Origin: Candidatus Eiseniibacteriota bacterium
Lineage (GTDB): Bacteria; Eisenbacteria; RBG-16-71-46; CAIMUX01; WJJG01
Length of the DNA stretch: 64,000 bases
Assembly: GCA_023129715.1 (NCBI GenBank)
Contig: JAGMBO010000003.1
Span: 1 to 64,000 of the forward strand
Reading direction: 5' to 3'
The notes under the pieces were generated by a model, which saw nothing but the letters and a program-made list of their open reading frames with translations, did no database searches and was not told the DNA's origin. Below are positions 46,337 through 61,136 of the stretch, in pieces. The position numbers were made by a program, and so were the translations under genes. How positions within the stretch are numbered: the stretch's first letter is position 1; each line of letters begins with the position of its first letter.

Positions 46337-46350
46337 CGACAGGTTTGCAG

Positions 46351-48819
46351 ATGGCTGCCCAAGCCGACTGGGGCCAACGCCTGACTGGAGGGCTGCGCTT
46401 CTTCCTGCTCGGGGCGCTTTCCCTGATCTTGCAGACACTCCTCGTGCGCGAGTCGCTGTTCGCCTTCCACGGCGGAGAGATTGGGCTGGGAGTCTTCTTC
46501 GCTGTCTGGTTGGGCGGTATCGCCGCCGGGGCGCGCTGTGGCGCCGGCATCGTTGCCAGGGGGAGGACGGGGCCGATCGATCGCGGGGGGCTGTCCGGCG
46601 ACGCCGCCCGGCGCGCTGAGAGCCTCCCCGACGGGACCGGGATTCTGCTGGCGCTCGCCTGCTTGACCCTGTTGGGTCTCCTGCAACTGAGCATCTTCCG
46701 GGTGCATCGGGCGGTGATCCCTGTCGCGGCGGGAGGGTACCTGCCCGCGCTCGCCTATTTCCTGCTGCTCCTCGTGGTGGCGGCTCCGGCCGCATTCCTG
46801 ACCGGGTTGCTCTTTCCGCTCGGCCTGCGGTTGCGGATCCCGAGACCGGGGAATGCCTATGCGCTCGAAGCGCTCGGTTCGATGGCCGGTGGCGCGCTGG
46901 CTTCCTTGTACGCATTGCCGCGGATCCCCGCGGTGACCCTGATCCTGCTCGCGGGCTGCGCGCTCGGCTCGCTCTGGCTGGCCGAGGTCTCGCTGGCGCT
47001 CCGCTCGCAGGCACAGCGGGTGCCGACTGCCGTGGGTGCTCCGCTGCGGGCGCGAATCAAGCGTCTGGCCTGGGCCGCGATCCTGCTGGGGGTCTTCGTC
47101 TTCTTGGTGGCCGGCGGGAGCGGTCAAGACCTCGATCGTTGGCTGCGCGCGGCGCGCTGGCGGAACCTGGAGACGGGCACCGAGATGGTGATCGATGAGG
47201 CGACGCCCTACCACCAGGTGACGATCGCGGAACGTGAGGGGGAGGCTTCACTCTATCTCGATGGGCTCTATCAGGGCGCGCTCTCGGATCCCTTCGTCGA
47301 CAGTCTGGCCGCCGCCCTCGTTCTCACCCAGCATCCGGGGCCAGACCGGATCTTGCTGCTTGCCCCGGCGCTCTACGGCCCAGCGCAGGTGATCGCCGGA
47401 GTGCGGGGGGCGCGGATCACCCTCCTGCGGGCCGAAGAAGAGATCGACCGCCTCGTTGGCCGGCACACCGTCGGAGCTCGCGCCTCCGCGGAAGCGGGCG
47501 CAGCCGGATCTTGCGGAGCGGCCAGGTCCGCCGGTCTCAGGAGGCTGACGGCAGATCCGCGCTCTGGGGTCCGCGTGTTGGCCGGTGAGGTAGGCGGCCG
47601 GCAGCCATGGGGCCCCCCCTTCGATCTGATCGCCATGCTCCACGGAGGGCCCGCCGGTGGGGCGACCAATCGTCTCTACACGCAGGAGTTCTTCGCCGCC
47701 TGCGCCCGGGTGCTCGCCCCGGGCGGCGTTCTGGCGCTGCGCCTTGCCGGTGCGGCCAATGTCGCCAGTCCCGAGATCGAGCGCATGCGCGGTGCGGTCT
47801 TCTCCGCCCTGGAGCGGGAGTTTTCCGAAGTGCGGATCACTCCCGGCAGGACGCACTATCTTTTCGCCGCGCAATCATCCGCCGTCGGGCAGTCGCCCCT
47901 CTCCTGGAACCCCGACACACTCGCGGCCCGGCGCGCGCGCATGTGGCCCGGTCCGGCGCCCTGGACCGCGCAGTTCTTTGCCGTGCAACTGCCGGTCGAG
48001 CGCCTACGCGGCCTGCAGGCCCACATTGCGGCGCGAGTCGCGGAGGGCGTCGCACCCAATCGGGATCTGCGCCCGCATGTCTACTACGAGCAGATCCGTC
48101 GTTGGGACCGGTTCTCGGGCAGCCGCCTATCAACGCTCCTCGAAGGATGGCACGCGCGTCCCTGGCGCTGGAGCCTCGCGTTTCTCGGGCTGCTCGCCAT
48201 CGTCGCGTCCCTGCTGCATCGCCGGCATGGGCCCGCGCTGGTCAGCCTCGCCAGCACCGGCATGGCCGGCATGGGCGCAAACCTGATGATCCTGCTCCTC
48301 TACCAGACCCATCGCGGGACGCTCTACCTGGAAGTGGGGCTCATCATCGCCCTGTTCATGCTCGGTCTGGCCCTCGGCGCCCATCTGGCGGGGCGTGCGC
48401 GTCGCTGTGGCAAGCGCTGGGGCGCGCTCGCGGGGAGCGATCTGCTCTGGGTGGTCTTTCTCCTGGCGATGGTTCCGCTGCTTGGCTGCCTGCCCGGTGC
48501 GGGCTCCGGAGCGAGCCTCTTCCTTGGGATTGCCGCGCTGGTCTCGGGAGCTCTGACCGCGCTTCCCTTCCCCTGGGTCGTCGCGCGCTTGACCGAGACC
48601 TCAGGGGGGCGGTTGCGGCCCGGCGCGTCACGGTCGCCGGACGTCAGCCTGGCGGTTGCGGGAGGACTGGCCGACGCCGCCGATCATGCGGGGGCCCTGT
48701 GCGGCGCCCTGGTGACCGGCGTCTTTCTGGTTCCGCTGCTTGGTTTTCCCGGCACACTACTGACCCTGGCGGCGCTCAAGGCGCTCAGCGCCCTCAGCTG
48801 GCTCTGGCCGCGGCGCTGA
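46351..48819 (+). CDS. Membrane-embedded spermidine-synthase-like protein, SAM site degenerate
   Basis: This is an 822-residue fusion. Six to seven hydrophobic helices at the N-terminus and six at the C-terminus flank a soluble domain at about residues 270-570. The soluble part aligns by eye with spermidine synthases (TPYHQVTIAEREGEASLYLDG and, later, FFAACARVLAPGGVLALRLAG). The glycine-rich SAM/dcSAM motif (GGGDGG in real enzymes) is replaced by LLAPALYGPAQV, and the following acidic ligand is not evident. Catalysis in the usual way is doubtful. The ATG at 46351 is preferred over an upstream TTG. It is convergent with the AmmeMemoRadiSam operon (109-bp gap). Confidence 0.75.
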   Translation: MAAQADWGQRLTGGLRFFLLGALSLILQTLLVRESLFAFHGGEIGLGVFFAVWLGGIAAGARCGAGIVARGRTGPIDRGGLSGDAARRAESLPDGTGILLALACLTLLGLLQLSIFRVHRAVIPVAAGGYLPALAYFLLLLVVAAPAAFLTGLLFPLGLRLRIPRPGNAYALEALGSMAGGALASLYALPRIPAVTLILLAGCALGSLWLAEVSLALRSQAQRVPTAVGAPLRARIKRLAWAAILLGVFVFLVAGGSGQDLDRWLRAARWRNLETGTEMVIDEATPYHQVTIAEREGEASLYLDGLYQGALSDPFVDSLAAALVLTQHPGPDRILLLAPALYGPAQVIAGVRGARITLLRAEEEIDRLVGRHTVGARASAEAGAAGSCGAARSAGLRRLTADPRSGVRVLAGEVGGRQPWGPPFDLIAMLHGGPAGGATNRLYTQEFFAACARVLAPGGVLALRLAGAANVASPEIERMRGAVFSALEREFSEVRITPGRTHYLFAAQSSAVGQSPLSWNPDTLAARRARMWPGPAPWTAQFFAVQLPVERLRGLQAHIAARVAEGVAPNRDLRPHVYYEQIRRWDRFSGSRLSTLLEGWHARPWRWSLAFLGLLAIVASLLHRRHGPALVSLASTGMAGMGANLMILLLYQTHRGTLYLEVGLIIALFMLGLALGAHLAGRARRCGKRWGALAGSDLLWVVFLLAMVPLLGCLPGAGSGASLFLGIAALVSGALTALPFPWVVARLTETSGGRLRPGASRSPDVSLAVAGGLADAADHAGALCGALVTGVFLVPLLGFPGTLLTLAALKALSALSWLWPRR

Positions 48820-48928: not shown

Positions 48929-50074
48929 CTAGCTCCAGACCCCCGGAATCGGCGTATTGCAGGAGGGGCAGCGGCCGTCTCGCAGGCGGAAGCTACCGAT
49001 GATGTAGCCGTAGCGCTCGATCACCCGCTCGCCGCAGACCGCGCAGTAAGTCGACTCGCTCGGATGGCCGGGCACATTGCCGAGGTAGACGTAGTGCAGT
49101 CCCGCCTCCTTGGCGAGCGCATGCAGCCGTTCAAGTGTCGCGACGGGCGTTCGGGGAAGGTTGCGGATCTTGTAGGTTGGATGGAAACGGGTCAGGTGCA
49201 GCGGCACATCCGGTCCCAGGTGTTCGCGGATCCAGGCGAACATCGCCCGGTTGCTCTCCGAGTCGTCGTTGAGCGTCGGGATGATCAAGACGACGATCTC
49301 GGTCCAGAGCCCCAGATCACGCAGCGTCTCCAGGGTCGCCAGCACCGGTGCCAGAGACGCACTGCACTGCCGGACGTAGAACTCCTCGGTGAAGGCCTTC
49401 AGATCGACCTTGTAGGCTGCCAGGTGGGGCGCCAGCTCGCGCAGCGGGCGTTCTTGGATGTACCCGTTGGAGATGACCACGTTGCGGATGCCCGCTGGAC
49501 TCGTCGCCCGGGCGGTCGCGAGCATGTATTCGTAGAAGACCGTCGGTTCGGTGTAGGTGTAGGCGATGGAAGTTGCCTGGTGACGGCGGGCGGTCTCGAG
49601 GAGCGCGTGGGGTGGGGCGGGTGTTGAGGCAACCTGTTCGGGGCGGAACTGGGAGATCTCCCAGTTCTGACAGAAGCGGCACTCCATGTTGCAGCCGGCA
49701 GTGGCCAGCGAGAGTGCCTGGGTGCCGGGGAGGAAGTGGAAGAGCGGCTTCTTCTCGATCGGATCGACATGGATCGCGCAGGCGCGGCCGTGCACGAGGG
49801 TGACGTACTCGCCGCCTTGGTTCTCCCGGACGCCGCAATAACCCCGCTCCCGATCGGCGACGCGGCATTCCCGCGGGCAGAGCCGGCAGAGTACGCGCTT
49901 GCCGGGGAGCACGTCGTAGTGGAGCGCGGGGGCGGTGGCGATTTCTGCTTTGCCCTGCGGCAGCGCGAAGTCGATCGCATCTTGCGCCGAGGCGGCGCCG
50001 CCGAGCAGATCTCCGGCGAGACGGCCGCCAAGCGCGCTCCCTCCCAGCCAGGCGATCAGGTCACGGCGCTGCAT
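48929..50074 (-). CDS. amrS: AmmeMemoRadiSam system radical SAM enzyme with Tat signal
   Basis: This is a 381-residue radical SAM protein of the AmmeMemoRadiSam type. The [4Fe-4S] motif CxxxCxxC is at Cys128, Cys132 and Cys135 (GCNMECRFCQNWEIS). Extra Cys clusters lie before it (CRLCPREC...GYCGVREN) and at the C-terminus (YCAVCGE and CPSCNTP), probably binding further metal. The N-terminus is a twin-arginine signal (MQRRDLIAWLGGSALGG), suggesting export of the folded, cofactor-loaded enzyme. Its reaction is unknown. It is the last gene of a minus-strand set with a DUF362 gene and the Memo-AMMECR1 fusion. The ATG at 50074 places the RR at residues 3-4. Confidence 0.92.
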   Translation of the reverse strand: MQRRDLIAWLGGSALGGRLAGDLLGGAASAQDAIDFALPQGKAEIATAPALHYDVLPGKRVLCRLCPRECRVADRERGYCGVRENQGGEYVTLVHGRACAIHVDPIEKKPLFHFLPGTQALSLATAGCNMECRFCQNWEISQFRPEQVASTPAPPHALLETARRHQATSIAYTYTEPTVFYEYMLATARATSPAGIRNVVISNGYIQERPLRELAPHLAAYKVDLKAFTEEFYVRQCSASLAPVLATLETLRDLGLWTEIVVLIIPTLNDDSESNRAMFAWIREHLGPDVPLHLTRFHPTYKIRNLPRTPVATLERLHALAKEAGLHYVYLGNVPGHPSESTYCAVCGERVIERYGYIIGSFRLRDGRCPSCNTPIPGVWS

Positions 50075-50148
50075 GGCGATGCTTCGCTCCCCACTCCGAG
50101 GCACGCCGCCGGCAATCCCCCGCATAGGGGGCTTGCCGCGACGGGCGC

Positions 50149-50222
50149 GTCAGCATTCCAACACCTCTGCCGGGTCGGCGCGGCGGCGGGTCAGCATTCC
50201 AACACTTCCACCGGATCGCAAC
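50149..50222. repeat. 41-bp imperfect tandem duplication of the DUF362 gene end
   Basis: GTCAGCATTCCAACAC occurs at 50149-50164 and again at 50190-50205, with similar flanks (CTCTGCCGGGTCG versus TTCCACCGGATCG). The second copy is the true 3' end of the DUF362 gene (minus strand, EVLEC plus stop). The first repeats those codons and the stop after it. Confidence 0.85.
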
Positions 50223-51243
50223 GCCCCAGTTCCAAGCGGGCGGCGGTCTCGATCCAGTGCGGCGCCCGGCCCGCCTCGCTCAGCGATGGCAGGCCGCGCC
50301 GGCTCCGCTCGCCCTCGATCCACTGCCAGGCGATCCTATCGCAGGCGACCGGGTCGACGGCCAGGAGGATCCGGTCACAGGGCCAGATCCAATCGGGAGC
50401 GAAGGCCGGCCCCTGCTCGGCCTGGGCGAGGATGGCGTCGATTACCGTCAGTCGCAGCCGGGCGCGGACCGCTGGCAGGGCGGTCACATGGGCGACGTAG
50501 GGGTCACACGTATGGTCATGATAACGGTTCGGATTGTGGATCACGCCGTAGAGGTTCTTCATGCCCGCCGAGACCCCGGCGAGATCGTGGTCCTTGAGCA
50601 CGCCGACATTGATCAGCACCGTGGCGTAATCGGTGAGGATGCGGCTCACCAAACTGCCGACCGGGCCTGAGGATTCGATCGTGCTGCCGTAGCCGCCGCC
50701 GCGGAGGGCGTCGGTGCCGTAGGCCCTCACGGCGTCATCCCCCGTCTGGCGCGGAAATCCGCTGCGTTCCACCTCTCGCGTCGTCCGGTCCCAGATCGTG
50801 ATCGCTCCCGCGGGAACCCCGGCGGCGCGGAGGCCGGCGACGATGGCGGCGATCAGTTCGGGGCGCGGCGAGAGGTTCCCCGAGGCGAGGGCGTTGATCT
50901 TGATGGCCACCCGGTCCTCGGGCGCGGCGAGCCGGGCCCAGGGCTCGGGGCCGAGCAGCGCCTGCATGCCGGCGGCCAGCCGCTCCGAGATCCGTGCCGC
51001 CGGCAGGGCGTCGCGGTTCGAGCGGGGGGCCTCACCCGGGGGAATCAGCTCTCCGACCGCCACGACGCGGCCGATGGTCTCGGCGGTCGGGATGGGGGCT
51101 CGCCCCGCGGGCTCGCGCGGTGCCTCACCTGCTCCCGCGTCGGTGTCCGCTCCGGCGCTCGCGGCGAGTGTCCCGGCCAGGGCGGCGGCGCCGCAGCAGA
51201 GGCCGCCGAGGCCGGCGTGCATGAAGCGACGCCGATCGATCAT
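50191..51243 (-). CDS. DUF362 domain protein with Tat signal
   Basis: This is a 350-residue protein of the DUF362 family. The N-terminus is a twin-arginine signal (MIDRRRFMHAGLGGLCCGAA). Family hallmarks are VAIKINALASGNLSPRPELI (the conserved K-x-N motif), GVPAGAITIWDRTTREVE and VLINVGVLKDHDLAGVSAGMK. Here the expected Fe-S cluster part is absent, leaving the core domain. It starts 6 bp after the Memo-AMMECR1 stop and lies just upstream of amrS, so it is embedded in the AmmeMemoRadiSam transcript. Function is unknown. The association suggests a partner or substrate handler of the radical SAM enzyme. Confidence 0.88.
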   Translation of the reverse strand: MIDRRRFMHAGLGGLCCGAAALAGTLAASAGADTDAGAGEAPREPAGRAPIPTAETIGRVVAVGELIPPGEAPRSNRDALPAARISERLAAGMQALLGPEPWARLAAPEDRVAIKINALASGNLSPRPELIAAIVAGLRAAGVPAGAITIWDRTTREVERSGFPRQTGDDAVRAYGTDALRGGGYGSTIESSGPVGSLVSRILTDYATVLINVGVLKDHDLAGVSAGMKNLYGVIHNPNRYHDHTCDPYVAHVTALPAVRARLRLTVIDAILAQAEQGPAFAPDWIWPCDRILLAVDPVACDRIAWQWIEGERSRRGLPSLSEAGRAPHWIETAARLELGRCDPVEVLEC

Positions 51244-51249
51244 GGTCTT

Positions 51250-52941
51250 TCAGTCCTTCATCTCTTTCTCGGAGAAGACGAGTGCCGAGAAGACTTGCAG
51301 GCGGGTCTTCTCTCGCCAGGCGTCACGCGGCAACCCGGCTTTTATCGCGAGATGTTCGAGCATCGTCTCGCGGTTCCAGCCTTGCTCGGGCGCCACCTGG
51401 GGCAGGAAGACCGCCCGGTGTCCGCTGCGTTCCAGCACGACACCATGGCGCCCGATCTCGATCTCTTCGGGAGCGGCGATGTCGACGAGCGGGGTGAGCA
51501 CGGAGATCTCGATCTCCAGTTCGTCGATCTCCTCCGCGGTCACCGGCGGGAAGCGCGGATCCCGCAGCGCGGCATTGCGCGCCTGCTCGCGCACAGCGTC
51601 GATGAGCGATTCGTTGCCGGTGATGTGTCCAATGCATCCCCGCAAGCGTCCCCGCCGGTGGAGGGTCACGAAGATCCCGCCATGCTGTGCGAGCTTCTCG
51701 CGGGAAACCGACGCGGGAAGCGGTCCGGCTGCCGGGAGGTTCTTTCCCGCGACGACCTCGCGAATCGTGCGGCGCGCGAGGCCGAGCAGGAAGCGCTTCT
51801 CATGAATGGTCAGTTCGAAGGTCTCTTCTGCAGGCTCTTCCTCGGTTTCTTTCTCTGTCTGCGCGGCCTCTCCCGGCACCTGCACGGCCTGGAGTCGTGG
51901 GGGAAACGCCGGACCCTCCCGCAGTGCGCCTCCCGGGAAGAAAGCCACGGCGGCATAGCTGACCGAGCCGTCGAAGTCCTGGATCAGGTCGGCCGAGCGG
52001 TAGTACTCGAGCACCCGTCCTTCCGGTCGCCTTTCCCCCCAGAGAGCCTGCAGGCTTGGTGACCGCAGCAACTCGATCAGCACGCCGATGGGATGGAAGC
52101 CGCAGACCGAGATGTCGGTCTCCTGCTTGTAGCGCGCGAAGGACTGGGCGTCGAGGCGCAGGATCGGGACCAAGGCGCCTTTATCGAGGCGACGCAGATT
52201 GGCGTCGACATCGTCCCGGAAGGGCAGGTATCCGAAGCGGGCTCCGTAGTGGGTGAAGTCCGAACTGATCAGCAGCAGTGTGTGCGCGTCGACAAAGGGG
52301 ATCAGCGCAGCAGCGAGCGCCGGCCAGTCGTCCGCTGCGAGCTGGGAGACCAGAATGGGCACGATCTGAAAGGGATGATCCAGGACCCGCTGCAGGAAGG
52401 GGAGCTGGATCTCCAGACAGTGCTCCTCGGCATGCGCCCTGGGCACCGTCTGGAAGAGCTCCTGCTCGCCGAGCAGGTCGGCGACGCGGCGGTCGAGAGG
52501 GACCTTGCCCAGGGGGGTCTCGTAGGCCTCGACATCGAGGATCGACGCGCCGCGGAATCCCAGACGATGGGCGGGACCGAGCAGGATCACGCGCCGGATC
52601 TCCTCACCGCCCGGGCCCTGCAGGAGCCGGTAGGCGCAGCCGGCAGCGTCTCCCGACCATTGGTGCCCGGCATGCGGTGCGATGAGGGCGATCGGGGGAC
52701 GGCGGGCGATCTCGGCCAAGGGGGTCCCGGCCGCCAGGTGATTGTCGATCGCGGCGGTGAGCTCTGTGGAATCCGCCGCATACCAGGCGCCGGCGAGGGC
52801 GCTGGGGCGCGTATCGGACATGGTTTCGGCCTCACTGTTGGGGTCCGTCCCGAGCAGGCACCAGGCGAAGGGGATCAGGAAGAGCAGGGCGTGCCGGCGG
52901 CTGAGGGTAGGGGCGGATAGACACTGGAAGCGTCGGTTCAT
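51250..52941 (-). CDS. AmmeMemoRadiSam Memo (AmrB) - AMMECR1 (AmrA) fusion, exported
   Basis: This is a 563-residue fusion. Residues ~45-340 are a Memo-like domain related to extradiol dioxygenases. Likely metal-site positions are kept: His90 (IAPHAGHQWSG), His125 (LGPAHRLG), Asp228-His231 (SSDFTHYG) and Cys280 (SVCGFHPIG). An acidic linker (~351-376) leads to an AMMECR1 domain with the family signature LRGCIGHI at 433-440. The N-terminus has Arg-Arg followed by a hydrophobic helix (SRRHALLFLIPFAWCLLG), so it may be exported or anchored. The ATG at 52941 has GGGAGAG upstream. The genes are usually separate in other genomes. With amrS it forms the complete three-part system. Confidence 0.92.
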   Translation of the reverse strand: MNRRFQCLSAPTLSRRHALLFLIPFAWCLLGTDPNSEAETMSDTRPSALAGAWYAADSTELTAAIDNHLAAGTPLAEIARRPPIALIAPHAGHQWSGDAAGCAYRLLQGPGGEEIRRVILLGPAHRLGFRGASILDVEAYETPLGKVPLDRRVADLLGEQELFQTVPRAHAEEHCLEIQLPFLQRVLDHPFQIVPILVSQLAADDWPALAAALIPFVDAHTLLLISSDFTHYGARFGYLPFRDDVDANLRRLDKGALVPILRLDAQSFARYKQETDISVCGFHPIGVLIELLRSPSLQALWGERRPEGRVLEYYRSADLIQDFDGSVSYAAVAFFPGGALREGPAFPPRLQAVQVPGEAAQTEKETEEEPAEETFELTIHEKRFLLGLARRTIREVVAGKNLPAAGPLPASVSREKLAQHGGIFVTLHRRGRLRGCIGHITGNESLIDAVREQARNAALRDPRFPPVTAEEIDELEIEISVLTPLVDIAAPEEIEIGRHGVVLERSGHRAVFLPQVAPEQGWNRETMLEHLAIKAGLPRDAWREKTRLQVFSALVFSEKEMKD

Positions 52942-53043
52942 GACATCTCTCCCGTCGGGATCTTGCCTGCCCATCGTAGGCAATCCGATCCAGGCGGGCA
53001 ATGCCTGCCGGGCTGGATCTGTCCGCCGCGCACGTCATGGTTT

Positions 53044-53141
53044 GGGGGAGGTCCAGAGAGGGCTCGGCGCTCAGGCACGTCCTCGCTCGCGCTGGCGCGC
53101 TCGCTGCGGAACGCGCGGCGAGCCCTCTCTGGACCTCCCCC
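53044..53141. repeat. Perfect 23-bp inverted repeat with structured 52-nt loop
   Basis: The left arm (53044-53066) begins GGGGGAGGTCCAGAGAGGGC. The right arm (53119-53141) is its exact 23-nt reverse complement. The loop is itself GC-rich and self-complementary (GCTCGCGCTGGCGCGC). It fills much of the 243-bp gap between the glycosyltransferase end and the Memo-AMMECR1 start. Neither end has a T-tract. It resembles a REP- or MITE-like palindromic unit more than a simple terminator. Confidence 0.85.
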
Positions 53142-53184
53142 CGGAAGATCTGGTGAGGAAGGCGGCCCAGCGGCCGAGCCGGTG

Positions 53185-54213
53185 TCAGTGCAGGCAGAGG
53201 AAGTCGCGGCCCTCTTGCCGGCCGAGGTCTGCGAGGCGCGCGCGGATCAGCGCCCGCGCGCCGCGGGTGCCGACCGCGACCAGCAGGAGGGTGCCGGTGC
53301 CGGCGGATTGCGTCGCCAGGGCCTCCGGGGCGAGCACCGGGCAGCCGAGCCGTCGCCGGCCGATCTTGCGCGGGTCGATGTCGATGAACGCGGAGGGCTC
53401 GAGGCGGCGCGCGCGCAAGGCGCGGGCGAGCCGCCGGCCGTCGCGCCCGGCGCCCCAGATGAGGAGACGATGCCTCTGGAGCCGGGGGGCGAGATGCTGG
53501 AGCTTGCAGGCGAGAAACGCCGCGGGCCGGTACCGCGGGTCGCGGAAGGTGAGGCGGCCGCCATGATGACGCCATTCATAGAGCGCCGCGGCCACCTTGG
53601 CGAAGCGCCAGCCCCTGTTGTGCAGGCGCAGCCAGAGATCGTAGTCCTCGGGCCAGGGGACCTCGCGATACCCGCCGCACGCGTCATAGGCTTCGCGGCG
53701 CATCAGCACCGCGGGGTGGGGCAGCGGGCTCTCGATCCAGAGGTCACGAGCGATCTCCTGCGGGGAGAGCGCCGCATTGAGCCATTCGGCGTAGACTCGC
53801 AGCCCGGCCCCGAGAGCCTCGGCGGGAAACAGCCGTACCTGCGAGGCGACCGCCCCCAGGCGGGCATCACTCTGCAACAGGGCGAGCGTGCGCGCGAGCC
53901 GTTGGGGGTGTGAGCGGTCATCGGCATCTTGGCGTGCCAGGACCGGGGCACGGGCTTCGGCGGCGGCATGGGTCAGCGCGCCCACGATGCCCTGGCGGCG
54001 GGCATGACGCAGCAGGCGCACCCGCCGATCCCGCCGGCTCCACGCCGCGGCCAGCTCGGGAGTGGCGTCGGTGGAGCCGTCGTCGACCAGCAGGCATTCC
54101 CACTCGGTCAGCGTTTGGGCGCTCAGGCTCGCCAGAGCCTCATCGAGCGTGTCGGCGGCGTTGTGGGCGGGAAGCAGGATGCTGATTTGCGGTCGAGCGG
54201 GCAAGACGCTCAT
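53185..54213 (-). CDS. Family 2 glycosyltransferase fused to a Rossmann-like domain
   Basis: This is a 342-residue protein. Residues ~8-230 are a GT-A family 2 transferase: ISILLPAHNAADTLDEALAS, the acidic LLVDDGSTDATPE, a second acidic RQDADD (DxD-like) and PWPEDYDLWLRLH (catalytic base region). From about residue 245 a second nucleotide-binding fold begins (RLLIWGAGRDGRRLARALRA), continuing to AFIDIDPRKIG. This is like the N-terminal part of sugar O-acyltransferases or CoA-binding domains. The ATG overlaps the stop of the upstream DUF362 gene (ATGA), so the two are coupled. The acceptor is unknown. Confidence 0.85.
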   Translation of the reverse strand: MSVLPARPQISILLPAHNAADTLDEALASLSAQTLTEWECLLVDDGSTDATPELAAAWSRRDRRVRLLRHARRQGIVGALTHAAAEARAPVLARQDADDRSHPQRLARTLALLQSDARLGAVASQVRLFPAEALGAGLRVYAEWLNAALSPQEIARDLWIESPLPHPAVLMRREAYDACGGYREVPWPEDYDLWLRLHNRGWRFAKVAAALYEWRHHGGRLTFRDPRYRPAAFLACKLQHLAPRLQRHRLLIWGAGRDGRRLARALRARRLEPSAFIDIDPRKIGRRRLGCPVLAPEALATQSAGTGTLLLVAVGTRGARALIRARLADLGRQEGRDFLCLH

Positions 54214-55589
54214 CGCACCCGCAGGATCCGCCGCGTGCGCTGCAACGACCCGGCGGCCAGCGTGGCGAAATAGACGCCCGCGGGCATCGCCCGCCCGCGC
54301 GCGTTGCGACCATCCCACGATACCGCGGAATAGCCGGCGGCATACTCCCGCTCACCGAGGTCGCGGACCAACCTTCCCGAGATGTCCCGGATCGACAGGT
54401 GGGCGCGCATCGTCTCGGGCAGGCGGAAACGCACCAGCGTGCCGTCCCGGAAGGGGTTGGGGACGTTGGGGACGAGGAAGATCCCGCGCGAGGCCTCCCA
54501 CGCCTCTCCCGGCAGTCCCGCCGGGTCGTAGTGGATGACGGTCATGGCGCCCGGATCGCTGATCCCCAGATAATGGGGATCGCCCGAGGCGGTCTCGATC
54601 CACGAGCAGGTCTTCGCCGACCAGCCATGCAGCGCCCGCTCGGCATTGATCATGTCGAGTCCCCAGTACTCGTTGGTCACCGGGTCGTTAGCGAAGAAGA
54701 GCGTGTTCGGCGTTTGGTCGGGATACATCTCCCAGATCTGCGGCCACTCGCTGGGCCCGCCATTGTAGGTGCCCCGCAGTCCGTCGGTGACGACCAGGGC
54801 CGTCTTCCCCTTGATGTTGGCGTCGGTGTTGAGATCGAGCATCTTGGGGACGTTGCCGGTCGCGCAGATGTTCGCGGGACTGCACGACCCATAGTGGTTC
54901 TTCAAGGCAATCGTGATCTCGTGGGTCGCCGAGTGGCTCTTCAACGCCGGAACATTGATCAGGTAGTCGCCGTCGATCAGATAGTCACAGAGCTTGTGGC
55001 CGGCGACGGGATAGTATCCGTGTTCGACGGTCAGCCCACTGGCGATTGTTGGTTGCACGCCGTCGAAATCGAAATTCGCCGCCGTATAGCCATGCCCGCC
55101 GATGTAGCGGTTGTCGTAGATCGTGACGTTGGTGATGTCGTAGGTGCCGCCGAGCATGAGACGCAATCCCGCCACGATCCCACGCACCGTTTCCCAACGG
55201 GTATCGGTGGGGCCGATGCAATTGACCTTGATGGCGATCTTGGTCGTCGTCGTCAGGATCGGGTCGGGGAAGAGGGACTCGAAGGCGGCGGCCGTGTCTC
55301 CGATTCCGGTCAGGAGGCGCACACCATGGGCAACGACCTCTTCGATGCGACCCGCATCGAAGACACTCTCGACGTACATCTGCGAGTCATGATAGAGAAC
55401 GATGCGCCCGGCCAGGGGATTGTCGCGCCCCAGTACTGCCCCGCGGAGCGTTGCGGACTGGGCAGCCCCGGCCGCAGCGCCGTGGCCGCCGGCCATCGAG
55501 GCGAGCGCCAGGGAGGAGAGTTTGAGAAACTCGCGGCGGGATGTGGACGGCAGGTGAGACTCGCTTGGATGAGATCGGTGTGTTGCCAA
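54210..55589 (-). CDS. DUF362 domain protein with Tat signal and FlgD-Ig-like C-terminus
   Basis: This is a 459-residue exported protein. The TTG at 55589 is the likely start: GAGAGGAAG lies 7 nt upstream, and it places a textbook Tat signal at residues ~18-45 (SRREFLKLSSLALASMAGG). The DUF362 core shows IAIKVNCIGPTDTRW, ITNVTIYDN and LINVPALKSHSATHEITIALK. These are the same motifs as in the DUF362 protein 3 kb away. The C-terminal ~85 residues are a FlgD-Ig/type-IX-like domain (PNVPNPFRDGT, SIRDISGRLVRDLGE, GVYFATLAAG, RRILRVR). It is coupled to the glycosyltransferase gene. Confidence 0.88.
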   Translation of the reverse strand: MATHRSHPSESHLPSTSRREFLKLSSLALASMAGGHGAAAGAAQSATLRGAVLGRDNPLAGRIVLYHDSQMYVESVFDAGRIEEVVAHGVRLLTGIGDTAAAFESLFPDPILTTTTKIAIKVNCIGPTDTRWETVRGIVAGLRLMLGGTYDITNVTIYDNRYIGGHGYTAANFDFDGVQPTIASGLTVEHGYYPVAGHKLCDYLIDGDYLINVPALKSHSATHEITIALKNHYGSCSPANICATGNVPKMLDLNTDANIKGKTALVVTDGLRGTYNGGPSEWPQIWEMYPDQTPNTLFFANDPVTNEYWGLDMINAERALHGWSAKTCSWIETASGDPHYLGISDPGAMTVIHYDPAGLPGEAWEASRGIFLVPNVPNPFRDGTLVRFRLPETMRAHLSIRDISGRLVRDLGEREYAAGYSAVSWDGRNARGRAMPAGVYFATLAAGSLQRTRRILRVR

Positions 55590-59073: not shown

Positions 59074-60078
59074 ATGAGCGTCCGCGTTGGCCTGATGGGC
59101 TTCGGCCGCATCGGCCGCAATATCTTCCGCATTTCGCGGGGCATGCCCGAGATCGAGATCGTGGCGATCTGCGATGTCGCCGATCCGAGGGGGCTCGAGT
59201 ACCTGCTGCGCTTTGATACGGTCCATGGCCGCTTCAAGGAGCCCTTCAAGGTCTCCGACGGGTTCATGTACATCGCTGGGCGGCAGATTCGTATGCTCAA
59301 CGCACGCGAGCCCGGAGATGTGCCTTGGGCGGAGCTCGGGGCTCAGGTCGTTGTCGAGGCGACGGGCAAGTACCGCACGCGGGAATGGCTCCAGAAACAC
59401 CTCGACGCCGGGGCGCAGAAGGTCGTTCTCACCACGCCGCCCCGCGACCGCATCGACATGGTCGTGGTCACCGGGGTCAATGATGATTTGTTGCGTCCCG
59501 AGCATCGGATCATCTCGAACGGGTCGTGTACGTCGAATGCGGTAGCGCCGATCGTCAAGATCCTCCACGAGGGCGTCGGCGTGCGGCAGGCCTTCATGAC
59601 CACGGTGCATGCCTACACCAACGACCAGCGCCTGGCCGACGTGCCCCACAGCGAGCTGCGCCGGTCGCGCGCCGCGGCGGAGAACATCATTCCCGCCTCG
59701 ACCTGGTCGCCGATGGCGGTCGAACGCATCGTCCCCGAGATGAACGGGCGGATCAGTGGTCTGGCCATGAACGTTCCGGTGCCCGATGGCAGTGTCGTCG
59801 ATCTGGTGACCTTGATGGGGAAGGATACCTCGCGCGAGCAGATCAACGACCTCGTCTGGAGTGCCGCCGAGGGGCCCTACCGCGACGTCGTCGAGTATTG
59901 CGACCAACCAATCGTCTCGAGCGATGTGGTCGGCAATTCGCATTCAGCGGTCTTTGACTCGCTGGCGACTTTGGTGATCGGCGGCAACATGCTCAAGACG
60001 CTGACCTGGTATGACAATGGATGGGGCTATGCCGCCCGGGTTATCGAGCTGATCCGCAAGCTGGCGCAATGGTGGTAG
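59074..60078 (+). CDS. Glyceraldehyde-3-phosphate dehydrogenase paralogue 1 (divergent)
   Basis: This 334-residue enzyme of the GAPDH superfamily has an N-terminal NAD fold (VGLMGFGRIGRNIFRIS) and catalytic Cys152 in SNGSCTSNAVAP. The usual form is SNASCTTNCLAP, so the pocket differs at several positions. The His is in TVHAYTNDQ. The S-loop region reads AAENIIPASTWSPMAVERIV rather than the canonical PTTTGAAKAVGKVLP, which probably changes substrate or subunit contacts. Candidates are a gluconeogenic GAPDH or an erythrose-4-phosphate type enzyme. GGGAGG lies before the ATG. The canonical paralogue follows 59 bp later. Confidence 0.88.
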   Translation: MSVRVGLMGFGRIGRNIFRISRGMPEIEIVAICDVADPRGLEYLLRFDTVHGRFKEPFKVSDGFMYIAGRQIRMLNAREPGDVPWAELGAQVVVEATGKYRTREWLQKHLDAGAQKVVLTTPPRDRIDMVVVTGVNDDLLRPEHRIISNGSCTSNAVAPIVKILHEGVGVRQAFMTTVHAYTNDQRLADVPHSELRRSRAAAENIIPASTWSPMAVERIVPEMNGRISGLAMNVPVPDGSVVDLVTLMGKDTSREQINDLVWSAAEGPYRDVVEYCDQPIVSSDVVGNSHSAVFDSLATLVIGGNMLKTLTWYDNGWGYAARVIELIRKLAQWW

Positions 60079-60137
60079 TCGCAGGGGTCTCCCGGGCGCC
60101 GACCGCGCCGGGACAGGAATAGAGAGGAGAGTCGAGC

Positions 60138-61136
60138 ATGCGCGTGGCGCTCAACGGATTCGGCCGCATCGGCCGCACTCTGCTGCGGATCCTCAGTGAA
60201 CGGAAAGACATCGACGTGGTCGCGATCAACGACATCGCGGACAACAAGGGACTGGCCTACCTGTTCAAGTACGACACCGTGATGGGGACCTTCCGCGGGC
60301 AGATCGGTCTCGATGGAGACACCTTCAATGTCAATCATCATGCGATCAAGATGACCGCGATTCCGGAACTGGCGCGTCTGCCCTGGAAGGATCTGGGCGT
60401 TGATATCGTCGTCGAGGCGACCGGGCGCTTCCGGATGCGCGAGGAAATCGCCGTGCATCTCGAGGCCGGTGCCCGCAAGGTGATCCTGACAGTCCCCGCC
60501 AAGGATGAAATCGATGCCACGATCGTGCTCGGCGTCAATGACGATGTGCTCAAGCCCGAGCACCAGATCATCTCGAATGCTTCCTGCACGACGAACTGCC
60601 TGGCCCCGGTGGCCAAGGTGCTCGATGAGAGCTTCGGGATCGTCAAGGGGGTCATGACGACCGTGCATGCCTACACCAATGATCAGCGCCTGGCCGACGT
60701 GCCCCACAAGGATCTGCGGCGCTCGCGAGCGGCCGCCGAGAACATCATTCCGACGACGACCGGAGCGGCGAAGGCGGTCGGGAAGGTGCTGCCCAATCTC
60801 CAGGGCAAGCTCGACGGCATCGCCATGCGCGTGCCGGTGCCGGATGGATCGATCGTCGATCTGGTCACCGAGATGGCCCGGCCGGTGACGGTCGAGGAGG
60901 TCAACGCGGCGATTGCCTCTGCCGCGGAAGGGCCGCTGCGCACGATTCTCGAGTGCTGCACCGAGCCGATCGTCTCGAGCGATGTGATCGGCAACCCGCA
61001 CTCATCGATCTTCGATGCGCTCTCGACGGCCGTTCTGGGCGGGAACTTGCTCAAGACCATTTCCTGGTACGACAACGAGTGGGGGTATTCCTGCCGGGTC
61101 GTCGATCTGATGCAGCGGTTGGGCACCTACCTCTAG
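60138..61136 (+). CDS. gap: Glyceraldehyde-3-phosphate dehydrogenase (canonical)
   Basis: This 332-residue glycolytic enzyme oxidises glyceraldehyde-3-phosphate with NAD and phosphate. All family motifs are present: VALNGFGRIGRTLLRI, Asp in AINDIAD (NAD-type ribose binding), catalytic Cys150 in SNASCTTNCLAP, His in TVHAYTNDQ, and the S-loop AAENIIPTTTGAAKAVGKVLP. The ending (SWYDNEWGYSCRVVDLM) is standard. It is clearly a duplicate of the preceding gene, but conservative where that one has drifted. It lies 5 bp before the nucleotidyltransferase gene, so it may be co-transcribed with the heptose genes. Confidence 0.95.
   Translation: MRVALNGFGRIGRTLLRILSERKDIDVVAINDIADNKGLAYLFKYDTVMGTFRGQIGLDGDTFNVNHHAIKMTAIPELARLPWKDLGVDIVVEATGRFRMREEIAVHLEAGARKVILTVPAKDEIDATIVLGVNDDVLKPEHQIISNASCTTNCLAPVAKVLDESFGIVKGVMTTVHAYTNDQRLADVPHKDLRRSRAAAENIIPTTTGAAKAVGKVLPNLQGKLDGIAMRVPVPDGSIVDLVTEMARPVTVEEVNAAIASAAEGPLRTILECCTEPIVSSDVIGNPHSSIFDALSTAVLGGNLLKTISWYDNEWGYSCRVVDLMQRLGTYL

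Follow-up and report, generated by a model that had tools for sequence, protein, structure and literature searches.

The window analysed here is a 64,000-nucleotide stretch of a Candidatus Eiseniibacteriota genome (contig JAGMBO010000003.1). In this Eisenbacteria-type genome, the genes for a Memo-AMMECR1 fusion, a DUF362 protein and the radical S-adenosylmethionine (SAM) enzyme AmrS form a tight run on the minus strand. On balance, we favour the reading that this locus encodes a paralogue of the AmmeMemoRadiSam system that works outside the cytoplasm on an envelope substrate. We are very confident that the gene set forms a module and fairly confident, judging from the predicted N-termini, that it resides outside the cytoplasm. 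The chemistry proposed for it below is a guess, offered tentatively. AmmeMemoRadiSam proteins include homologues of human MEMO1 and AMMECR1, and we know of no reaction for any of them. The window module is an apparently export-directed variant of the known system. It belongs to a second, ancient version of this widely conserved enzyme set, in which almost every part bears an export signal and additional partner proteins are present.

Transcription on the minus strand runs from a FlgD_ig-tailed DUF362 gene through a GT2 glycosyltransferase gene to the Memo-AMMECR1 fusion, a partner DUF362 gene and amrS. The gaps between the last three genes measure 6 bp (fusion to partner DUF362) and 116 bp (partner DUF362 to amrS). 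A first-pass annotation of this DNA had reported gaps of 6-120 bp, and its gene positions, strand and families are likewise all borne out, with every family above its curated cut-off (NCBIfam, Pfam). The host genome (4.83 Mb, 96% complete) carries eight DUF362 genes and two full AmrS genes.

The window AmrS scores 379.6 bits against TIGR04337 (cut-off 220) and retains the radical SAM CxxxCxxC motif, an N-terminal Cys4 group and a C-terminal CxxC-CxxC arrangement. Its start was taken as the ATG of MQRRDLIAWLGG, the longest open reading frame (ORF) reaching 50125. The protein carries the twin-arginine motif QRRDLIAWLGGSALGG and a predicted signal for twin-arginine translocation (Tat), MQRRDLIAWLGGSALGG. 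In a tree of 163 AmrS proteins, one branch (Shimodaira-Hasegawa-like approximate likelihood ratio test, SH-aLRT, 99) parts 105 exported-clade from 58 signal-less rows; the tree came from a quick search, and its inner branches should be read with caution. All eleven structural and catalytic cysteines are kept in exported AmrS, and 41 columns, including the radical SAM and auxiliary cysteines, reach 95% conservation or more in each of the two clades. Radical SAM function thus appears to be under selection in the exported proteins. Both kinds of AmrS coexist in many genomes, the host included. Its second AmrS (contig C109, locus L041) lacks a signal, its sequence beginning MSPDPVVARWW, and no Memo, AMMECR1 or DUF362 gene was found near it. 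The window locus therefore represents one of two paralogous AmrS clades rather than the whole system relocated, which corrects the first-pass annotation on this point. Tandem pairs of Tat-signal AmrS genes occur at two loci (L171 and L191) in two genomes.

An N-terminal signal, either Tat or of the general secretory (Sec) type, was found in 101 of the 105 exported-clade AmrS proteins. The exceptions are a protein whose N-terminus is cut by the contig (L094), two in which no signal was found (L125 and L153) and a Planctomycetota tri-fusion (L113:4565-6868, JACQXL010000054.1), in which Memo, AMMECR1 and AmrS are a single polypeptide behind one N-terminal signal anchor. Tat calls were made by a relaxed motif rule, with a background of 92 calls in 1353 arbitrary ORFs; a stricter rule missed the window protein. 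By inspection, three proteins with no call (L091, L122 and L145) were set as exported, and one with a weak call in the signal-less clade (L187, PRRVAAT) was set as not exported. The signals span a dozen or more phyla and fall into three types: Tat, Sec and lipoprotein. One genome with no TatC match (G049) encodes an AmrS that carries a Sec/transmembrane-type signal instead. In the window, AmrS and the partner DUF362 protein each have a twin-arginine motif and a hydrophobic stretch near the start, and the host genome encodes TatC, so that both qualify as predicted Tat substrates. Twin-arginine motifs are present in all three proteins for which the first-pass annotation had claimed Tat signals (AmrS and both DUF362 proteins). 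Its broader proposal of an extracytoplasmic module gains support from orthologues, in which predicted signals are conserved throughout the exported clade rather than absent.

The Memo-AMMECR1 fusion, two genes upstream of amrS, begins with MNRRFQCLSAPTLSRRHALLFLIPFAWCLLG and scores 204 bits against TIGR04336 and 174 bits against TIGR04335. In its alignment to human MEMO1 (125 bits), the metal ligands H49, H81 and C244 are aligned, with the MEMO1 iron ligands of PMC11081632 as reference, and the AMMECR1 LRGCIG motif is retained. Sec, lipoprotein or Tat-like N-termini are present on 48 of 53 neighbouring Memo fusions. By genome-wide count, the window fusion is the host's sole AMMECR1 and the only full-strength Memo found; the other Memo-like match, on contig C126, is weak. 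A divergent Memo-like gene in the host genome lies about 13 kb from a LarC gene (G000:C126:118795 and 131888).

AmrS neighbourhoods were drawn from three sources: relatives found by family search, which were not picked by similarity to the window AmrS; 80 loci obtained by scanning named genomes with a Tat-type AmrS alignment; and the other AmrS copies in 40 scanned genomes. A DUF362 gene lies directly upstream (within 1.5 kb, same strand) at 39/72 loci of the similarity-ranked scan, 6/24 of the family search and 0/53 of the signal-less clade. The corresponding counts within 6 kb of AmrS are 21/43, 7/16 and 1/38 for Memo and 19/43, 8/16 and 0/38 for a spermidine-synthase-like membrane protein. 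Fisher p-values for the family-search set (6e-4 for DUF362, 4e-4 for Memo and 1e-5 for the membrane protein) serve only as guides because the rows are related. Altogether, 45 of 96 assessable exported-clade loci have DUF362 upstream versus none of the 53 signal-less loci, and the chance expectation for such a placement is about one in 800 trials (8 genes in 4.8 Mb). This adjacency extends over about 12 phyla, among them Planctomycetota, Acidobacteriota, Aminicenantes, Poribacteria, Latescibacterota, Zixibacteria, Myxococcota, Calditrichota, KSB1, Thermodesulfobacteriota, Armatimonadota and the Eisenbacteria group of the host. In Aminicenantes and Zixibacteria, the DUF362, AmrS and membrane protein genes are contiguous or overlapping. 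The association of DUF362 with AmrS is neither local nor accidental. The suggestion that DUF362 is an added component of the system is thereby supported, its enrichment near amrS reaching well past close relatives. At six loci, a NapG/NapH-type polyferredoxin gene is found near exported AmrS (L093, L120, L122, L131, L134 and L136), paired in L131 and L136 with another DUF362 gene; it is a possible electron source for the enzyme.

The partner DUF362 protein, with the twin-arginine motif DRRRFMHAGLGGLCCGAAALAG, scores 77.4 bits against PF04015 (gathering cut-off 24). A profile built from 43 DUF362 partners was searched against 59 genomes (the host and its relatives). Seven of these contain a match of 374-413 bits, including the window protein at 386 bits, and everything else scores 177.5 bits or less. 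Six of the seven members lie beside exported AmrS, and the seventh follows a Memo fusion in the matching gene order where its contig ends. The AmrS-adjacent DUF362 proteins are thus a subfamily of their own. Of the 43 full-length partners, about 30 have Tat-like signals and about a dozen, mainly of Aminicenantes and Zixibacteria types, begin directly at the domain. These signal-free partners might be co-exported with AmrS. Elsewhere, one locus (L209, G007:C84:4000-20000) carries three DUF362 genes in 13 kb, none of the AmrS-partner kind.

The AF2 model of the partner DUF362 protein (mean predicted local distance difference test, pLDDT, 90) matches LarA-family racemases in Foldseek (E 3e-6, probability 1.00, template modelling (TM) score about 0.4-0.46), which suggests a LarA-like fold. 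In the partner alignment His219 and Lys229 are invariant, and the residues of H219-x3-G-x5-K229 are spaced as in the His-x3-Gly-x5-Lys pattern conserved in LarA (His174/Lys184). A profile comparison with LarA aligns over the N-terminal part only. The host genome encodes LarC and LarE and has no LarA match. Neither LarC nor LarE reaches its cut-off in five genomes encoding the partner, so the data do not support a requirement for the nickel-pincer cofactor; on this ground and on the N-terminal-only profile match, the partner was rejected as an obligate nickel-pincer enzyme. The predicted link to LarA may be a relationship of fold only; the relevant clan membership is stated in PMC11770544. A role as an iron-sulfur electron carrier was also rejected, as the 43-row alignment contains no conserved set of cysteines.

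The first-pass annotation overlooked a conserved partner on the other side of amrS. The membrane protein gene that converges on amrS at a distance of 109 bp belongs to a spermidine-synthase-like cluster found beside 38 of 95 Tat-type loci in recurrent-neighbour clustering, and in several phyla this gene is on the same strand as amrS and closely spaced or overlapping. The window copy has weak MFS_1 and polyamine aminopropyltransferase matches. A homologue (L086) scores 107 bits against PF01564, and its AF2 model runs from seven helices through a domain to the remainder of the protein; Foldseek matches this model to spermidine synthases (TM 0.73 to target). The window protein was rejected as a true spermidine synthase because it falls below cut-offs (32.7 bits against the aminopropyltransferase equivalog, cut-off 472) and its nucleotide loop is degenerate. 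Mean lysine plus arginine counts per loop are 2.0, 3.1, 1.8 and 3.0 for the would-be inside versus 0.1, 2.0 and 0.6 for the outside. By the positive-inside rule, the spermidine-synthase-like domain is therefore predicted to face outside the cytoplasm.

The gene set, the kept signals and catalytic residues, and the clade-bound association are shown by the sequences themselves. Taken as an exported module, these proteins could operate as follows. AmrS would fold and gain its iron-sulfur clusters in the cytoplasm before export by Tat. The LarA-fold DUF362 partner would also use Tat or, where signal-free, be carried along on AmrS. For the Memo-AMMECR1 fusion the main route would be Sec, in many cases as a lipoprotein, and its metal would be acquired outside. 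With a cofactor-bearing AmrS (and perhaps DUF362) using Tat and the fusion using Sec or lipoprotein export, the parts would most sensibly meet outside. There they would cooperate with the membrane protein, which would cross the membrane several times and expose its spermidine-synthase-like (SAM-nucleotide-type) domain on the outside, and all parts may act on one lipid-, isoprenoid- or protein-linked substrate in the envelope. AmrS might perform a radical modification, the Memo iron site a follow-up oxidation and DUF362 an extra C-H or hydride-type step. The source of SAM is the least certain element: AmrS may be loaded with it before leaving the cytoplasm, or the membrane protein may provide and recycle it. 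In the full scheme, SAM-dependent radical chemistry would occur outside the cytoplasm: SAM-type nucleosides would be supplied or recycled across the membrane to exported AmrS by the membrane protein, and AmrS, together with DUF362 and Memo-AMMECR1, would modify some component of the envelope. This scheme is speculative and more probably wrong than right.

Several points weigh against an exported module. We know of no SAM pool outside the cytoplasm, and a radical SAM enzyme there is consequently biochemically awkward. Signals were judged from motifs and hydropathy rather than by SignalP, and start codons were inferred. Roughly one in four partner DUF362 proteins is signal-free and would at those loci have to be either co-exported or working inside. 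The GGG nucleotide-binding loop of the window membrane protein is lost and reads APA. Nearly all data come from metagenome-assembled genomes. The scan of 80 loci, ordered by resemblance to the window AmrS, over-represents the nearest kin of that protein; the family-search frequencies are lower.

Some of these points would fit a system in which AmrS, with or without DUF362, performs its radical chemistry in the cytoplasm and Tat merely exports the holo-complex or a product carrier, leaving AmrS as a passenger or structural subunit outside. SAM is located in the cytoplasm, Tat transports folded, cofactor-loaded proteins, and some DUF362 partners are signal-free. However, the Sec-type signals on Memo-AMMECR1 suggest that partners are met outside, the tri-fusion places one signal ahead of all three domains, and some exported-clade AmrS have Sec/transmembrane-type rather than Tat signals. 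We regard this explanation as unlikely. Less likely still is an ordinary cytoplasmic system that stays at the inner membrane face, with N-terminal segments that serve as membrane anchors or are dead remnants. Anchors and cleaved signals look alike to hydropathy rules, and weak signals do occur, but RRxF[LI]-type motifs are kept across the exported clade and missing from the signal-less paralogues, several Memo fusions have lipobox signals, and signals of three types persist across the phyla noted above. Finally, DUF362 proteins are common (0-9 per genome) and often Tat-signalled, and DUF362 adjacency switches nine times on the AmrS tree, as might occur if unrelated DUF362 genes were brought beside AmrS by shared envelope regulons and not by joint function. 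The clean separation of the partner subfamily by profile score and the almost exclusive placement of its members beside exported AmrS make this last explanation very improbable.

The module differs from the usual AmmeMemoRadiSam system (TIGR04335, TIGR04336 and TIGR04337), with which it shares all three components above cut-offs and their characteristic motifs, in its export signals, the fusion of Memo to AMMECR1, a separate AmrS clade and the addition of DUF362 and the membrane protein. Human MEMO1 (PDB 7kq8; PMC11081632) has the same iron/copper ligands and is cytosolic and stand-alone, unlike the signal-bearing fusion. The partner DUF362 proteins share a predicted fold and His-Lys spacing with LarA nickel-pincer racemases but are a distinct and mostly Tat-exported subfamily. 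By sequence, the nearest solved relatives of AmrS are pyruvate formate-lyase activating enzyme (PDB 3c8f; E 2e-12) and other glycyl-radical activases, which lack its N-terminal Cys4, C-terminal CxxC-CxxC and export signal; no glycyl-radical enzyme is encoded at the locus. Membrane spermidine synthases, including the fused MFS-spermidine synthase (PRK03612 and NF037959, to which L086 scores 175 and 75 bits), resemble the membrane protein, which differs in its sub-equivalog scores, its predicted extracytoplasmic domain and, in the window, its lost loop.

In the open literature searched, AmmeMemoRadiSam is named only in passing. A search there for radical SAM with Tat turned up neither a radical SAM enzyme that is exported nor a version of AmmeMemoRadiSam of that kind, most subscription papers being outside its reach. 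Memo is said to have been linked to base and isoprenoid modification by Burroughs et al. in the Journal of Biological Chemistry (JBC) in 2019. An exported, fused version with defined extra partners narrows the substrate search to the cell envelope and offers deletable genes, testable signals and an isolable complex. An exported radical SAM enzyme, if true, would be very surprising and would challenge the view of SAM chemistry as confined to the cytoplasm.

Table 1. Features of the window at and around the amrS locus.
Feature	Coordinates	Strand	Evidence
Membrane protein, two transmembrane halves flanking a spermidine-synthase-like domain; converges on amrS	46345..48819	+	Weak matches, L086 homologue, recurrent neighbour, topology
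amrS, radical SAM enzyme, exported AmrS clade	48929..50074	-	TIGR04337, Cys motifs, tree placement
DUF362 partner, predicted Tat signal MIDRRRFMHAGLGG, predicted LarA-like fold	50191..51243	-	PF04015, partner profile, AF2/Foldseek
Memo-AMMECR1 fusion, signal-like N-terminal segment (SRRHALLFLIPFAWCLLG)	51250..52941	-	TIGR04336, TIGR04335, MEMO1 ligand alignment, genome counts
GT2 glycosyltransferase, 4-bp overlap with second DUF362	53185..54213	-	PF00535 104 bits
Second DUF362, predicted Tat signal SRREFLKLSSLALAS, C-terminal FlgD_ig / type IX secretion system (T9SS)-like tail	54210..55589	-	PF04015 40 bits, PF13860 34 bits

The two genes upstream of the fusion were rejected as parts of the module. 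The second DUF362 gene has a TTG start in a frame open to 55679, and its product carries the twin-arginine motif TSRREFLKLSSLALASMAG. It scores only 99 bits on the partner profile (versus 386 for the partner), so it belongs to another subfamily, and its type was seen near amrS in one same-family genome only (L047). Of the two DUF362 proteins that had been assigned to the module, only the one adjacent to amrS is retained. The GT2 glycosyltransferase, noted earlier as lying just upstream, is absent from the recurrent neighbour clusters and was also set aside.

The GT2 gene and the fusion are separated by 243 bp that hold a strong hairpin. This is a near-perfect inverted repeat (GGAGGTCCAGAGAGGGCTCG; window 53040-53145) with arms of at least 20 bp and a loop of about 50 bp, and as RNA it has a z-score of -4.8. 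A third copy was not found within the window, and the element could be either a terminator or a mobile repeat. A short tandem duplication spans the stop codon of the partner DUF362 gene (window 50142-50215), with an imperfect copy of the 3' end of the gene (GAAGTGTTGGAATGCTGACCCGCC) lying about 45 bp downstream. Farther along, two glyceraldehyde-3-phosphate dehydrogenase (GAPDH)-like genes are arranged in tandem on the plus strand (window 59074-61136).

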